DNA of 64,000 nucleotides from Halomonas sp. ML-15. Lineage in GTDB: Bacteria; Pseudomonadota; Gammaproteobacteria; Pseudomonadales; Halomonadaceae. Shown one piece after another: positions 7,246-14,963 of this stretch. Under the pieces are notes generated by a model. It was given only the letters and a program-made list of their open reading frames with translations, was not told where the DNA came from and did not search any database. How positions within the stretch are numbered: position 1 is the stretch's first letter; each line of letters starts with the position of its first letter. Position numbers and translations under genes: made by a program. Location of the stretch: positions 62,001 to 126,000 of the forward strand of contig NZ_JACXZT010000001.1 in NCBI RefSeq assembly GCF_014779595.1, in the 5' to 3' direction.

Positions 7246-7430
7246 AGCGGCAATCCTTGTCTTGCTGTCAGGCAGCCCCGCTGCAGGCAGACGGCCTCGG
7301 CGGGTCGTCGTGAAATGCTACCACGGGCTGCGCACGAGCCGCAGCGCTGCGGTGATCAACGCAATCTGATAATATTGACGGTCAGTGGCCGTTTCAATTC
7401 TCCCTCTGCCAGTGAGTGCTGCGCCGCCCC

Positions 7431-8345
7431 ATGTTCAACGCCCAATATTTTCGCACCTTTATCATGCTGGTGGAGACCGGTAGCTTCACGCAGACGGCGC
7501 GGCGCCTGGACATGACCCAGCCCGGGGTCAGCCAGCATATCCGCAAGCTCGAGCAGTACCTCGACAAGTCGTTGCTCAGCCGTCACGGCCGCCGCTTCAC
7601 GCTGACCGACAGCGGTCGCCGTGCATACGAGTACGCGATCAAGCTGTTTGCCGAACATGAGCACTTTCGTCATTCGCTGGACAACGACTCGCTGGATTCC
7701 GGCGAGTGCCGGCTGGCCTCGCCGGGCAGCGTCGGATTGATGCTGTACCCTTTCCTGCTTGGCTACCAGCAGATGCACCCCGGTCTCACCGTCAGCTACA
7801 GCTTTGCCTTCAATGACGCGATCGTGCAGGGCGTGCTGGCGGGTCGCTATGACCTGGGAATCGTCACCGATCTGGTCAAGCACACCGATATGCTTGTCGA
7901 GCCCTGGCATCAGGAGCCGCTGTGTCTGGTGGTGCCGGCGGACTTCATCGGCATCACCCTCAACGATCTGACCGGGCTCGGCTTCATCAATTACTCCGAT
8001 GGCGTTCAGCACGCCGCCCAGCTGCTCAAGGCCAACTTCCCCGGCGAATTTCGCAGTATGAAGCGTTTTCCGGAGCAGGGCTTCACCAACGAGGTGTCGA
8101 TGGTGCTCGACGCTGTGGCGCGGGGGCTGGGCTTCACGGTGGTGCCGCGGCTGGTGCTCGAGACTTCGCCCTGGCAGCGCCAGGTCAAGGAGTTGACGCT
8201 GGCTCAGCCGGTTCACGAAACGCTCTATGTGGTCACCTCCAGCGGCTCCGAGATGCCGCGGCGCTATGCGCGGCTGCTGGAGGATTTTCGCGAGCAGCGG
8301 CGCCAGTCGCTGTATGGCTACGCCGAGGAGCCGAGTTTCGGCTGA
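7431..8345 (+). CDS. LysR-type transcriptional regulator
   Basis: A 304-residue LysR protein with an N-terminal winged helix-turn-helix (FRTFIMLVETGSFTQTARRLDMTQPGVSQHIRKLE) and a periplasmic-binding-protein-like effector domain from about residue 90. A GTG at 7416 would add five residues; the ATG at 7431 fits the family better. It is divergent from ppnN across 185 bp, but LysR regulation of that neighbour is only a possibility. The inducer cannot be told from sequence. Confidence 0.9.
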   Translation: MFNAQYFRTFIMLVETGSFTQTARRLDMTQPGVSQHIRKLEQYLDKSLLSRHGRRFTLTDSGRRAYEYAIKLFAEHEHFRHSLDNDSLDSGECRLASPGSVGLMLYPFLLGYQQMHPGLTVSYSFAFNDAIVQGVLAGRYDLGIVTDLVKHTDMLVEPWHQEPLCLVVPADFIGITLNDLTGLGFINYSDGVQHAAQLLKANFPGEFRSMKRFPEQGFTNEVSMVLDAVARGLGFTVVPRLVLETSPWQRQVKELTLAQPVHETLYVVTSSGSEMPRRYARLLEDFREQRRQSLYGYAEEPSFG

Positions 8346-8423: not shown

Positions 8424-11318
8424 CTAGTCGCGGTACTCGTCGATGCTTGGGCAGGAGCAGATCAGTTGGCGGTCGCCGTGGACGTTGTCGACACGATTGA
8501 CCGCCGGCCACACCTTGGCGGCCTTGACCGCCGGCGAGGGGAAGGCGCCCAGCTCGCGGGAGTAGGGCCGCGACCAGTCGGCATCGATCAGGTCGGCCAT
8601 GGTGTGGGGGGCATGCACCAGCGGATTGTCATCTGCTGGCCAGTCGCCACGCTCGACCCGGCCGATCTCTTCGCGAATGGCAATCATGGCATCGCAGAAG
8701 CGATCGATCTCGTAGCGCGACTCCGACTCGGTGGGCTCGACCATCAATGTGCCGGGTACCGGAAATGACATGGTCGGCGCGTGAAAGCCATAGTCCATCA
8801 GGCGCTTGGCGATATCCTCTTCGGTGATCCCGGAGCTGGCCTTGAGCGGGCGAATGTCGATGATGCATTCGTGTGCCACCGTGCCGTTGATGCCGCGATA
8901 CAGGACCGGATAGTGGCCGTCGAGTCGCTGGGCTACATAGTTGGCGTTGAGGATCGCCAGCTCGGTGGCCTCACGCAGGCCTCGTGCGCCCATCATCTTG
9001 ATGTAGGCCCATGAGATCGGCAGGATCGAGGCACTACCGAACGCCGCCGCGGATACCGCGCCGCACTCGGCCTTGACGCCGCTGATCGGCGTGACCACGT
9101 GATTGGAGACGAACGGCGCCAGGTGCGCCTTGACACCGATCGGGCCCATCCCCGGGCCGCCGCCGCCGTGGGGAATGCAGAATGTCTTGTGCAGGTTGAG
9201 GTGCGAGACATCGGCGCCAAAATCCCCGGGCCGAGTCAGGCCGACCTGGGCGTTCATGTTGGCACCGTCGACGTAGACCTGGCCGCCGTTGTCGTGAACG
9301 ATCTGGCAAGCCTCCTGGACGCCCTCTTCGAATACGCCGTGGGTCGAGGGGTAGGTGAGCATGATCGCCGACAGGGCGTCGCGATGCTGCTCCGCCTTGT
9401 TGCGCAGGTCGGCGAGGTCGATATTGCCGTCGCTGTCGCATTCGACCACTACGACCTTCATCTGCGCCATGGCGGCGGAGGCGGGGTTGGTGCCGTGTGC
9501 GGAGCTGGGAATCAGGCAGATGTCGCGGTGACCCTGGCCCTCCGCTGCCTGGTAGCGGCGGATCGCCACCAGGCCGGCATACTCACCCTGGGCGCCGGAA
9601 TTGGGCTGCATCGAGATATGGTCATAGCCGGTGATCTCGACCAGGAAGGCCGCCAGCTCGTCGATCATCTGCTTGTAGCCAACCACCTGTTCGTGGGGGG
9701 CGAACGGATGGATCTGGCCGAACTCCGGCCAGGTGATGGGAATCATCTCGCTGGTGGCATTGAGCTTCATGGTGCATGAGCCGAGGGGGATCATCGCGTG
9801 GGTCAGCGACAGGTCCTTGTTCTCCAAGCGCTTGAGGTAGCGCAGCATCTCGGTTTCGCTGCGGTAGCGTTGGAAAGTGGGGTGCTGGAGGAAGTCGGAG
9901 TCACGTTGGCAGGCGGCGGGAATGCCGCTGCTGCCGGCGCTGACGATGGCCTCGTCCAGGGCGCTGACCGACAGTCCATGCTCCTCGCCGATCAGCACGT
10001 CAAACAGCACGTCGAGGTCATGGGCGGTGGTGGTTTCGTCGAGGCTGACGCCGATATCACCACCCTCGAAATAGCGCAGATTGATCTCGTGGGTCATGGC
10101 GCGGCCGTGGATCTTGCCGGCATCGACGCCGGTCAGGCGCAGGGTATCGAACCAGCTGTCGTGGGCCAGCGAGATGCCCTTTTGATGCAGGCCTTCGGCA
10201 AGGATCGTGGTCAGGCGGTGAATGCGCATGGCGATGGTGCGTAACCCTTCGGCGCCATGGTAAACGGCATAGAACCCGGCGATATTGGCCAGCAGCGCCT
10301 GGGCGGTACAGATATTGGAGGTCGCCTTCTCGCGGCGAATATGCTGTTCGCGGGTCTGCATCGCCATGCGCAGGGCCTGCTGGCCGCGGGCGTCCTTGGA
10401 GACGCCGATGATGCGTCCCGGAATCGAGCGCTTGAGCTTGTCGGTGGTGGCGAAGAAGGCCGCGTGGGGGCCGCCGAAGCCCATGGGTACGCCGAAGCGC
10501 TGAGTATTGCCGACCACGATGTCAGCACCGAGTGCTCCGGGCTCCTTGAGCAGCACAAGGCTCATGATATCGGCAGCCACGCAGGTCATGACGCCGCGTC
10601 CGCGGGCCTCTTCGAGCAGCCCGCTGATATCGCGAACTTCGCCGCTCTGACCGGGATACTGCAGCAGCGCGCCAAAGACGTCATGCTGCGCCAGTTCGCC
10701 GGCCGGTGCCACGACCAGCTCGAAGCCGAAGTAGTGGGCGCGGGTGCGCACCACGTCGAGGGTCTGCGGCAGGACATCGTCGGCAACGAAGAAGGCCTTG
10801 CTCTTGGCCTTCTTGTTGGCGCGCTGGCATAGCGCCATGGCCTCGGCTGCTGCCGTGGCTTCGTCCAGCAACGAGGCATTGGCCAGTTCCATGCCGGTGA
10901 GGTCCATGACCATCTGCTGAAAGTTGAGCAGGCCCTCGAGGCGCCCCTGGGCGATCTCCGGCTGATAGGGGGTATAAGCGGTATACCAGCCGGGGTTCTC
11001 CAGTACATTGCGCTGGATGACCGCCGGGACATGAGTGTTGTGATACCCCTGGCCGATGTAGGTCTTGAAGACCTTGTTCTGGCGTGCCAGGCGCTTGAGA
11101 TAGTCGAGGGCCTCGGCTTCGGTGCGCGGACCCTCGAGGGAGAGTTCGCGTCCCAGCCGAATACCGGCGGGCACGGTCTGCTCGATTAGCGTGGCCACGC
11201 TGTCGACACCTAGGGTGGCGAGCATCTGAACGACATCGTCGGCGCTGGGCCCGTTATGACGATGAATGAAGGCATCGTGTCCGGCCAGGTCGGCCAGGCG
11301 TCGAGTCTCGTTAGCCAT
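8424..11318 (-). CDS. gcvP: Glycine dehydrogenase (decarboxylating), P protein
   Basis: A 964-residue single-chain P protein of the glycine cleavage system. It decarboxylates glycine on PLP and passes the aminomethyl group to the lipoyl arm of GcvH. It opens with the family pattern FIHRHNGPS and carries the PLP-lysine segment [16 protein letters not shown] followed by MGPIGV; the full length indicates the fused form, not GcvPA/PB. It is downstream of gcvH in a leftward unit (86-nt gap containing a hairpin). Confidence 0.97.
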
Positions 11319-11404: not shown

Positions 11405-11797
11405 TCAGTCTTCGGCGTCGACGACCTCGCCATAGCCGTCGGCATCGAGCAGGGCGGCCAGCGCATCGCTGTCGCTGAGCTTGAGTTTGGCGATCCAGCC
11501 GTCCTCGTAGGGCGATTCATTGACGGTCTCGGGGGCGTCCTCGAGGGCCTCGTTGACGGCGACCACTTCGCCACCCAGCGGGGCATAGAGATCGGACGCC
11601 GCCTTGACCGATTCGATGACCCCGAACTCTTCGCCGCTGGCCAGTTCCTGGCCGACCTCTGGCAGTTCGACGAAGACCACGTCACCGAGTGCCTGTTGGG
11701 CGTGGTCGGTAATGCCCAGGGTGACGGTGCCGTCACCGTTGTCGAGCACCCACTCATGACTCTTGGTGTAACGCAGGTTGGACGGAATAGCGCTCAT
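11405..11797 (-). CDS. gcvH: Glycine cleavage system H protein
   Basis: A 130-residue lipoyl carrier protein. The lipoylated lysine is K65 in [14 protein letters not shown], followed by the conserved NESPYEDGW segment. H protein shuttles the methylamine group between GcvP, GcvT and the L protein. The start at 11797 gives the usual length; the frame is open further upstream, but those residues are not family-like. A candidate operator shared with the symporter-gcvT unit lies directly upstream and overlaps the likely ribosome binding site. Confidence 0.96.
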
Positions 11798-11803
11798 AGT
11801 GGT

Positions 11804-11825
11804 TTTCCTATACGAAAAGGTTTTC
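11804..11825 (-). promoter_or_regulatory. Candidate operator in the gcvH leader (copy 1 of 2)
   Basis: Plus-strand TTTCC-TATAC-GAAAA-N3-TTTC, an inverted-repeat element with alternating TTTTC/GAAAA half-sites. It aligns without gaps to a second copy at 12136-12157. On the minus strand a possible promoter TCGCCA-N17-TACGAT (-10 at 11837-11842) would start transcription a few bases upstream of the element, so a bound protein would block gcvHP. The identity of the regulator is unknown. Confidence 0.5.
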
Positions 11826-12098
11826 TGAATCAGGGAATCGTACCGCCATTTGCATGCGATGGCGAGTCTCCAGCACATGCTCTGCCCCTGGCGAAAGGCT
11901 GACCGCCTACATAGGTTGGCCGCTGAGATGCCTCTCGTCCAGCCTCGCGCATATGGCCATGCGTCGTATCAAACTGTCTGTGTTCGCCGAGGTTACGTAC
12001 TCCACCTAAGCTCTACTACGCTGAAGGACAGGCAAACCACTGTGCTGACGTCACTCCCGGGTATCGCTCGGCAGCCCACTGGCGCGCTCCTGGAGCGG

Positions 12099-12157
12099 TT
12101 GCGATGGGGAATGAGGCGCAGTAAGCTAGCCTGTGTTTCCAATAGGAAAATAGTTTC
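12099..12157 (+). promoter_or_regulatory. Candidate promoter and operator for the symporter-gcvT unit (copy 2)
   Basis: TTGCGA (12099-12104) and TAAGCT (12122-12127) are 17 bp apart. TTTCC-AATAG-GAAAA-N3-TTTC (12136-12157) begins near the expected +1. Compared with the gcvH copy, the 22-bp elements agree at 17 positions. A repressor bound here would block transcription toward the symporter, about 238 bp downstream. Confidence 0.45.
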
Positions 12158-12394
12158 TCTTGTTGTTGGGCTGAATGGTCAATCAAGGGTAATGGCCGAG
12201 GAATTCTCCTTGACGTCGCATATCGATAACTCGATGGTCTGCAGCAGTAGAGCCTGGGCGGGTTTATTCGCTATTGTACGCCCATTCGACCGTCGCTATG
12301 GCCTTGTGCCACAGGCGGTTGAGGTCAGGTGTCCTGCGCTCGGGTCGGCGGCGTCGGGCACAACAATAATGAACCAGGATTGAAAGGAACAACC

Positions 12395-13780
12395 ATGGAA
12401 ACCTTGACCAGTCTCTTTACCGCCATCAACGGCGTGGTGTGGGGGCCGTTGATGCTGATACTGCTGCTGGGGGTGGGGCTCTACCTCCAGCTGGGGCTCA
12501 AGTTGATGCCGATTCGCAAGCTCGGCTTGGGTTTCAGTCTGCTGTGGCAGGGTCGCGACAAGCCCGGGGCCGACGCGTCCGACAAGCACGGTGAAATCTC
12601 GCCCTTCAATGCCTTGATGACGTCGCTGTCGGCGACCATCGGGACCGGCAATATCGCCGGTGTGGCGACGGCGATTGCCCTGGGGGGACCCGGTGCCGTG
12701 TTCTGGATGTGGATCACCGCACTGGTCGGCATGGCCACCAAGTTCGCTGAGGCGTTGCTGGCAGTGCGCTATCGTGAGACCGACAGTACCGGCAACCATG
12801 TCGGCGGGCCGATGTTCTATATCAAGAACGGCCTGGGCAAGAAGTGGATGTGGCTGGGCGGCGCCTTTGCCTTCTTCGGCGCGGTGGCGGCGTTCGGGAT
12901 CGGCAACACCGTGCAGTCCAACTCGGTGGCTGACGCCCTCGACTCGACCTTCGGCCTGCCGCACTGGATCACCGGGGTGGTGATCATGGTGCTGGCGGGG
13001 GCGGTGATCCTCGGTGGCATCAAGCGCATCGCCAAAGTGGCCGGCAAGCTGGTACCGATCATGGCCATTGCCTACATCTCTGCCGGCATCGTGGTGCTGA
13101 TCGTCAACGCCAGCGAGATCGGCAGCGCCTTCAGCATGATCTTCTACTACGCCTTCAACCCGCATGCGGCGATGGGCGGCTTCGCCGGGGCGGCCGTGAT
13201 GGCGGCGATCCGCTTCGGGGTGGCCCGCGGTATCTTCTCCAACGAGGCCGGCCTGGGCAGTGCGCCGATCGCCCACGCCGCCGCCAGGACCAAGAATCCG
13301 GTGCGCCAGGGCCTGATCGCCATGCTCGGTACCTTTATCGACACCATCATCGTCTGCACGATCACCGCGCTGGTGATCCTGACCTCTACAGTGTGGATCG
13401 ACGGCGAGGAAGGGGCATCGTTGACGGCACTGTCGTTCGAGGCGGCGCTGCCGGGCATCGGGAATCAGATCGTCTCCATCGCGCTGGCGGTCTTCGCGTT
13501 CACCACCATCCTCGGTTGGTCATTCTACGGTGAGAAGTGCTTCCAATTCCTGTTCGGAACGCGTTCGATCATGCTCTACCGCACCCTCTTCGTGCTGGCC
13601 ATTCCGCTCGGCGCCATGGCGCAGCTGGGCTTCATCTGGCTGATGGCCGATACCTTCAATGCCATGATGGCTATCCCCAACCTGATTGCGCTGGCGCTGC
13701 TGTCGCCGATGGTGTTCAAGCTGACCCGTGACTACTTCGACGGCAAGGAGGTGCTGCCGGGCGAAGATCTGCCGAAATGA
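12395..13780 (+). CDS. Sodium:alanine/glycine symporter (AGCS family)
   Basis: A 461-residue multi-pass membrane protein of the AGCS family, which imports alanine or glycine with Na+. The signatures are TSLSATIGTGNIAGVATAI (GTGNIAG at 83-89) and the re-entrant motif NEAGLGSAPIAHAAA. AAAGGAAC precedes the ATG at 12395. It is followed 70 nt later by gcvT on the same strand and shares a candidate operator with gcvHP, so glycine (or alanine feeding glycine metabolism) is a likely substrate by context. Confidence 0.92.
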   Translation: METLTSLFTAINGVVWGPLMLILLLGVGLYLQLGLKLMPIRKLGLGFSLLWQGRDKPGADASDKHGEISPFNALMTSLSATIGTGNIAGVATAIALGGPGAVFWMWITALVGMATKFAEALLAVRYRETDSTGNHVGGPMFYIKNGLGKKWMWLGGAFAFFGAVAAFGIGNTVQSNSVADALDSTFGLPHWITGVVIMVLAGAVILGGIKRIAKVAGKLVPIMAIAYISAGIVVLIVNASEIGSAFSMIFYYAFNPHAAMGGFAGAAVMAAIRFGVARGIFSNEAGLGSAPIAHAAARTKNPVRQGLIAMLGTFIDTIIVCTITALVILTSTVWIDGEEGASLTALSFEAALPGIGNQIVSIALAVFAFTTILGWSFYGEKCFQFLFGTRSIMLYRTLFVLAIPLGAMAQLGFIWLMADTFNAMMAIPNLIALALLSPMVFKLTRDYFDGKEVLPGEDLPK

Positions 13781-13850: not shown

Positions 13851-14963
13851 ATGACGCAACTCAACAAGACGCCGCTTCACGACCTCCATCGAGAACTGGG
13901 AGGCAAGATGGTGCCTTTCGCCGGTTTCGAGATGCCGGTGCAGTTTCCACTGGGGGTCAAGAAGGAGCATGAGCATACCCGCCAGGCGTGTGGCCTGTTC
14001 GACGTGTCACACATGGGGCAGGTGCTGATTCACGGCCCGGCGCCGGCCGAAGCGCTGGAAACACTGGTGTCGGCGGATATTGTCGGTTTGCCCGACGGAA
14101 TGCAGCGCTATGCACTGTTCACCTCGGAAGAGGGCGGCATCCTCGATGATCTGATGGTGGTCAATGCCGGCGACCACCTCTACCTGGTGGTCAACGCGGC
14201 CTGCAAGGAGCAGGACATCAGCCATCTGCGCACCGGGCTTGGCAGCGACTACCAGGTCGAGGTGGTGGAGCGTGGCTTGCTGGCGCTGCAGGGGCCCGAG
14301 GCGGCGACGGTCATGCAGCGGCTGTGTCCGACAGCCTGTGAGATGGTGTTCATGCAGCACGGCCGTTTCGAGATCGCGGGTATACCGGTGTGGATCAGCC
14401 GCAGCGGCTACACCGGTGAAGACGGTTTCGAAATCTCGGTGCCGGCAGAACACGGCGACGCGCTGGCGCGGCTGCTGCTGGCCGAACCCGAGGTCGAGGC
14501 GATTGGCCTGGGCGCCCGCGACTCCCTGCGTCTGGAGGCTGGCCTGTGCCTCTACGGGCACGATATCGATACCACCACGACACCGGTGGAGGCGGGTTTG
14601 ATCTGGGCGATCGGCAAGCCACGGCGCCGCGCTGGCGAGCGCGCGGCGGGCTTTCCCGGTGCCGACATCATCCTGCACCAGGTCGAGGCCAAGGACCACA
14701 CTCGCAAGCGGGTGGGGCTGCTCGGCGAGGGGCGGGCGCCGGTACGCGAGGGCGCTGAGCTGTTCAGCGCCGATGACATCAAGATCGGAGTAGTGACCTC
14801 GGGTGGCTTCGGTCCCAGCGTGGGGCAACCGGTGGCGATGGGCTATGTGGCCATCGATCAGGCCGAGGTCGGCACCCAGGTATATGCCGAGGTGCGCGGT
14901 AAGCGCTTGCCGATGACGGTGAGCAAGATGCCGTTTGTCACGCCGGGCTACCATCGCGGCTGA
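13851..14963 (+). CDS. gcvT: Aminomethyltransferase, glycine cleavage T protein
   Basis: A 370-residue T protein that transfers the methylene group from aminomethyl-GcvH to tetrahydrofolate, releasing ammonia. The start MTQLNKTPLHDLHRELGGKM, FDVSHMGQ, SRSGYTGEDGFEI and the C-terminal barrel region (SGGFGPSVGQPVAMGYV) are all family hallmarks. Its separation from gcvHP and its pairing with a symporter are noteworthy. A U-tract terminator follows at 15028-15058. Confidence 0.96.
   Translation: MTQLNKTPLHDLHRELGGKMVPFAGFEMPVQFPLGVKKEHEHTRQACGLFDVSHMGQVLIHGPAPAEALETLVSADIVGLPDGMQRYALFTSEEGGILDDLMVVNAGDHLYLVVNAACKEQDISHLRTGLGSDYQVEVVERGLLALQGPEAATVMQRLCPTACEMVFMQHGRFEIAGIPVWISRSGYTGEDGFEISVPAEHGDALARLLLAEPEVEAIGLGARDSLRLEAGLCLYGHDIDTTTTPVEAGLIWAIGKPRRRAGERAAGFPGADIILHQVEAKDHTRKRVGLLGEGRAPVREGAELFSADDIKIGVVTSGGFGPSVGQPVAMGYVAIDQAEVGTQVYAEVRGKRLPMTVSKMPFVTPGYHRG

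Follow-up and report, generated by a model that had tools for sequence, protein, structure and literature searches.

Divergent gcvHP and symporter–gcvT units of Halomonas sp. ML-15 are probably controlled by an XRE–cupin repressor encoded in trans

In Halomonas sp. ML-15 the gcvHP genes of the glycine cleavage system lie divergent from a unit that joins an amino acid:cation symporter to gcvT, and the same 22 bp element, TTTCCWATASGAAAANNNTTTC, stands in front of both. We may wonder which factor reads this element, and whether it is a protein or an RNA that controls the two units. The features discussed here are listed below; they belong to a 64 kb stretch of DNA, hereafter the window, which was analysed as a whole.

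7416..8345, plus strand: LysR-type gene next to gcvP and the most evident candidate for a regulator at the locus
8424..11318, minus strand: gcvP (964 aa), downstream of gcvH (PF02347, TIGR00461)
11405..11797, minus strand: gcvH (130 aa; PF01597, TIGR00527)
11804..11825, minus strand: putative operator copy 1, at gcvH; exact match
11837..11842, minus strand: TACGAT, probable −10 of the gcvHP promoter (predicted; best-scoring −10)
12099..12127, plus strand: TTGCGA-N17-TAAGCT, probable sigma-70 promoter of the symporter–gcvT unit (predicted)
12136..12157, plus strand: putative operator copy 2, at the symporter–gcvT unit, TTTCCAATAGGAAAATAGTTTC (TTTC-N6-GAAA-N4-TTTC); exact match
12136..12394, plus strand: predicted 5′ leader of the symporter mRNA, from a presumed transcription start; no Rfam match
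12395..13780, plus strand: AGCS family amino acid:cation symporter (461 aa; PF01235, TIGR00835)
13851..14963, plus strand: gcvT (PF01571, TIGR00528), with the start codon taken from the translation

The family of the symporter suggests glycine or alanine as its substrate. Its mRNA would carry a long leader (about 260 nt) that corresponds to no known RNA family.

The initial annotation described two copies of the element and no others. This was borne out both in the window, where the pattern has no further match at up to three mismatches (and none at all in 100 dinucleotide shuffles), and in the genome of 4,804,400 bases (20 contigs), where the two window copies are the only matches at up to two mismatches. 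The palindromic core, TTTCSNATNSGAAA, is likewise exact at these two copies only. With one mismatch it is found at seven other places, all of which are inside mechanically predicted open reading frames; the resulting nine core places, compared with 12 for a reversed control, are at noise level, and a wider regulon in this genome was rejected. On the gcvH strand, copy 1 reads GAAA-N4-TTTC-N6-GAAA within GAAAACCTTTTCGTATAGGAAA and ends 6 nt 5′ of the gcvH ATG. It overlaps the probable Shine–Dalgarno sequence of gcvH and may thus be conserved in part for the sake of translation, a confounding factor from which copy 2 is free.

Both copies had also been placed just downstream of promoters, which is plausible for this genome: a probable −10 element lies just 5′ of the site at all three of the promoters concerned (gcvH, symporter and that of the regulator gene described below), and copy 2 starts 8 nt after the TTGCGA-N17-TAAGCT promoter. 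On the other hand, a generic consensus scan found no promoter in the window region of the two units, and the relatives agree only in part. By a weighted −10 score, the best −10 of the symporter promoter precedes the site by 7–9 nt in 15 of 26 genomes; at gcvH its distance to the half-site is 10–11 nt in 12 of 25 genomes, and it lies elsewhere in the other 13. A −10 directly 5′ of the site would thus appear to be a tendency across relatives. Sites that lie directly 3′ of probable −10 elements would fit repression.

Rfam models at their gathering thresholds gave no match in the whole window, including the glycine riboswitch RF00504, and none was found at E ≤ 1 between 11700 and 12500; a glycine riboswitch at the gcv genes of this genome was rejected as no covariance model matches there. 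Tandem glycine riboswitches are present in eight of 58 genomes, including this one.

C17:279532-279742 (L216, G000:C17:273000-285000), minus strand: tandem glycine riboswitch of the same genome, upstream of a DadA-like gene

This riboswitch precedes a gene for a DadA-like FAD enzyme (model PRK12409; D-amino acid dehydrogenase-like), not gcv genes. By eye, the riboswitch likewise stands before a DadA-like gene in genomes G026, G055 and G056 (G001, G002 and G036 were left out of this comparison). In G050, a genome that is free of the regulator described below, a glycine riboswitch precedes gcvT–gcvH–gcvP.

The proposal of a shared operator had been made to depend on conservation of the element upstream of gcv genes in related genomes, and it is indeed conserved there. 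A search of 58 genomes with the 22 bp pattern at two mismatches gave a match in 31, with 11 of the 58 matching the reversed control; 23 of the 30 loci fetched in this way lie at gcvH with a divergent symporter and seven lie elsewhere. This background at two mismatches is the reason why sites were counted using the 14 bp core. In the alignment of sites the core is TTTC-N6-GAAA, with the middle A and T fixed and the inner positions variable, as would be expected of a site read by a protein, and the palindrome GTTTCCNATNGGAAAC is clear among relatives. A third half-site, GAAA, lies 8–9 nt from the core; it is exact in 20 of 25 copies at gcvH, 16 of 25 at the symporter and 34 of 36 at the regulator, the background rate being 2%. 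Among the regulator-bearing genomes of the family (Halomonadaceae) that were scored, the core (at most two mismatches) is found on the gcvH-proximal side in 25 of 26, the miss being G018, and on the distal, symporter side in 26 of 26. In other genomes the element also stands between gcvH units and gcvT.

The candidate regulator emerges from genomes in which its gene adjoins gcv genes. In G043 (locus L039), which belongs to another family, the site lies between gcvH and a divergent XRE–cupin gene, with glyA beyond that gene and a one-mismatch site also before this glyA. Orthologues are divergent from a gcvHP-containing unit in G008 and G031 (from the family of the window) and in G037 and G041 (from other families); this unit is headed by sdaA in G008, G031 and G037 and by gcvH in G041, gcvT lies downstream of the regulator in G008, G031 and G041, and sites lie in the intergenes. 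Besides these five genomes, gcv genes accompany the regulator in 10 of the 80 named loci that its sequence retrieved (Marinobacterium, Zooshikella, Photobacterium, Vibrio and uncultured relatives). The site (at most one mismatch) is present in all 10 of these loci and in none of the other 70, that is, 16 sites in 124 kb compared with none in 867 kb; one of the 16, inside glyA, is probably due to chance. G043 has a second regulator copy (L090; G043:C57) in divergent arrangement with an AGCS symporter gene, and the intergene of this pair holds no core at up to two mismatches.

The genome of the window has a single orthologue of this protein at E ≤ 1e-12.

G000:C4:161830-162462, outside the window and 88 kb from gcvH: XRE–cupin regulator gene, found by orthologue search

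The initial annotation was thus right that the regulator is not encoded beside the gcv genes of this genome. The protein carries HTH_3 (PF01381, 49.5 bits) and Cupin_2 (PF07883, 43.8 bits), both above cut-off, and its N-terminal XRE/HTH_3 and C-terminal Cupin_2 domains conform to the definition of an XRE–cupin protein. Its AlphaFold model reaches intermediate confidence (mean pLDDT 66, pTM 0.43, with an unreliable domain arrangement) and was used for the two-domain fold only.

If this protein reads the element, then the site and the gene should occur together. Of the 36 Halomonadaceae genomes with gcvH, 28 have the regulator and all 28 carry the site, compared with one of the eight that have no regulator (Fisher p = 9.6e-7, a value that overstates independence, as do the other Fisher values given here, because the genomes are related); the eight regulator-free genomes span six genera. 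For all 57 genomes with gcvH the counts are 31 of 31 and one of 26. For three of these 31 (G008, G031 and G037) the unit head was taken for scoring since gcvH is internal there, a choice made after the layout had been seen; scored at gcvH alone they show no site and would count as misses. The gcvH loci of the regulator-free genomes (170 kb) hold three one-mismatch matches and no exact one, although for 20 of these genomes only about 1.5–2 kb upstream was covered, so that an operon head further away might have escaped the scan. One of the three matches is in G016, a regulator-free genome that keeps CTTCGTATAGGAAA upstream of gcvH (L095), and this decayed copy is probably a relic of a site whose regulator has been lost.

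A prediction that follows from action in trans was also run, namely that a genome whose fetched regulator copy is located away from gcv genes should still have sites at gcv. It held in 11 of 12 genomes, which represent 12 of the 14 such loci outside the Halomonadaceae (Balneatrichaceae, Marinomonas, Marinobacterium and Neptuniibacter). A first pass restricted to the stretches adjoining gcvH had found a site in only one of the 12, since most of these genomes have gcvH inside a glyA/sdaA unit; at the unit heads, each of the 11 has one or two sites (at most one mismatch) in the stretch that separates the gcvH unit from gcvT. A regulator copy is also present there in three of the 11 (L244, L245 and L251), which leaves eight true trans cases, four of them from Marinomonas, and L245 is not new evidence since it is apparently the same contig as L195, being equal in length. 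The single miss is L255, where the 7 kb covered around gcvH are free of sites; this genome has one gcvH only, and the GcvT paired with it is distant (35% identity). The site tracks one regulator protein, and no RNA family matches at the locus, in agreement with the initial proposal of protein control rather than a riboswitch.

The regulator gene itself has a degenerate copy of the element. In the genome of the window, GGAAATTAATTTTCCAATAGTGAA ends 7 nt before the ATG of the regulator, just after TGTGGTATGCT, which by eye is an extended −10. A TTTC..AT.GTG site occupies this position in 36 of the 58 related regulator loci examined. Of the 22 loci without it, 14 carry the label Vreelandella or Salinicola, and a genome assigned to each of these labels (G036 and G007) still has its gcv sites. 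The suggestion that the 22 bp pattern might mark glyA or sda genes failed in this genome, as neither the two copies of glyA nor sdaA have a site (at most two mismatches) within 1.5 kb flanks, so the regulon looks confined to gcvHP, symporter–gcvT and the regulator itself. In some relatives glyA or sdaA forms part of the gcv unit under the site.

We consider that the two elements are operators of a single XRE–cupin repressor, encoded in trans and released by a ligand of its cupin domain, a reading to which we give a probability of about 0.85. Computation gives the sites and their conservation, the domains and the self-site of the regulator, its association with gcv genes among relatives and its co-occurrence with the site, and from these results we infer binding, repression, subunit number and ligand as follows. 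A dimer of the XRE–cupin protein would occupy the core palindrome GTTTCCNATNGGAAAC, and the neighbouring GAAA half-site, 8–9 nt away, would probably hold a further subunit. Placed over the transcription start, the regulator would block RNA polymerase at gcvHP and at symporter–gcvT, and through the weaker self-site it would block its own gene. Binding of a ligand to the cupin domain would release the regulator from DNA, glycine or a closely related metabolite being the simplest candidate, and uptake and cleavage would then be switched on together.

Three other readings have to be weighed against this one. It is unlikely that the XRE–cupin protein acts on these sites as an activator or switches between activation and repression. 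The direction of control is not readable from sequence and the promoters are predicted, which leaves room for this reading, but the sites are just 3′ of probable −10 elements at gcvH, the symporter and the regulator in the genome of the window, and the characterized XRE–cupin proteins of Pseudomonas aeruginosa inhibit transcription (PMC7901475).

We regard as less likely still that the sites belong to the LysR-type protein encoded beside gcvP (7416–8345), acting as a GcvA-like activator. GcvA of enterobacteria is a LysR protein, adjacency of the LysR gene to gcvP is kept in several relatives and the GcvA model is among the many LysR models that the neighbour matches, albeit well below the GcvA cut-off. 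Across families the presence of the LysR gene is correlated with the site (29 of 36 compared with three of 21 among 57 genomes, p = 1.2e-6), as would any gene of the family. Within the family, however, its presence does not track the site (27 of 33 with the gene and two of three without it, p = 0.49), and the neighbour was rejected as the regulator on this basis. Moreover, the LysR gene is present in G016, G011 and G034, which all are without the XRE–cupin gene and the site pair; it is absent (E ≤ 1e-60) from G008, G031 and G041 and lies far from gcv in G010, G033 and G019, all of which carry sites. A position downstream of a probable −10 would also be unusual for an activator.

Finally, there is hardly any likelihood that copy 1 is conserved for ribosome binding alone and that copy 2 resembles it by chance: copy 1 does include TAGGAAAA directly 5′ of the gcvH ATG, and the regulator-free G016 and G011 keep GGAAAA at that place, but copy 2 is far from gene starts and still has its core in all 26 regulator-bearing genomes scored, the upstream GAAA of copy 1 is outside the Shine–Dalgarno sequence and yet exact in 20 of 25 sites, and the element recurs between gcvH units and gcvT elsewhere.

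The XRE–cupin regulator can also be considered in terms of its history. In a midpoint-rooted tree of 38 regulators, those of the Halomonadaceae fall on one side of a branch (98/92) together with Balneatrichaceae, Marinomonas and Zooshikella. The order in Zooshikella (gcvPH, regulator, symporter, gcvT) would give the layout of the window if the regulator gene left the intergene. The history within the family is not simple, since the gcv-linked regulators of G008 and G031 group in another part of the tree than that of the window. In the named Halomonadaceae loci the regulator is mostly next to a CoA-ligase-like gene and often next to fdhD and formate dehydrogenase genes (for example L085:5435-17629). 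This proximity to formate dehydrogenase genes is a possible link between one-carbon oxidation and glycine cleavage. We put forward only tentatively the broader idea of a dedicated glycine/one-carbon sensor of marine gammaproteobacteria, a protein counterpart of the tandem riboswitches with a cooperative operator of three half-sites. On this idea the regulator gene of the Halomonadaceae would have left the gcv intergene, and given its frequent place beside formate dehydrogenase genes the protein may also sense or control a one-carbon product.

A regulator, its operator and a small regulon are thus proposed for the glycine cleavage system, and the regulator/site pair extends to loci from Halomonadaceae, Marinomonas, Marinobacterium, Balneatrichaceae, Zooshikella, Photobacterium and Vibrio. 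Halophiles of the Halomonadaceae group are in industrial use, and glycine is an end product of betaine breakdown. With regard to regulators of other families, we presume that the HexR motif is unlike this element. HexR and PUR* are predicted to control gcv genes in Shewanella together with GcvA (PMC3223726; HexR also in PMC5343134); GcvA resembles the present regulator in controlling glycine cleavage genes, but it belongs to another protein family. By structure, 1y9q (an HTH_3 family regulator from Vibrio cholerae) and HppE are among the best Foldseek matches and share the combination of HTH and cupin, at 17–20% identity and TM-scores of about 0.3 with a model whose domain arrangement is unreliable (pTM 0.43). 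They have an unrelated function or none assigned; 1y9q also shows sequence similarity to one relative (P0001), confined to the HTH.

The closest parallel is offered by the XRE–cupin repressors of Pseudomonas (PsdR, PauR, ErfA, PA1884 and others), described as inhibitors acting at palindromic core-promoter sites (PMC7901475). Both systems combine an HTH with a cupin domain, and few targets with target genes for enzymes and transporters. Palindromic promoter sites and a site adjoining the gene of the regulator would also be common to both, with the promoters predicted and the self-site degenerate in the present case. The main text of PMC7901475 makes no mention of glycine or gcv, no operator with three half-sites such as the present one is described in its sections 7 and 10, and no XRE–cupin regulator of gcv was found among the literature titles and abstract openings listed, a scope outside which most subscription journals fall. 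XRE–cupin repressors are a known kind, and it is the pathway and the operator that appear new. The glycine riboswitch RF00504 serves the same pathway, but as an RNA and not a protein, which provides a natural comparison between protein and riboswitch control of one pathway. In Pseudomonas the targets adjoin the regulator gene, except for PauR, whose targets are scattered (PMC7901475); in the present genome 88 kb separate the gene from its main proposed targets, and adjacency is retained in no more than a subset of the relatives. PauR offers one precedent for a regulator far from its targets, and after it the present protein would be a further XRE–cupin factor with its main targets far from its own gene.
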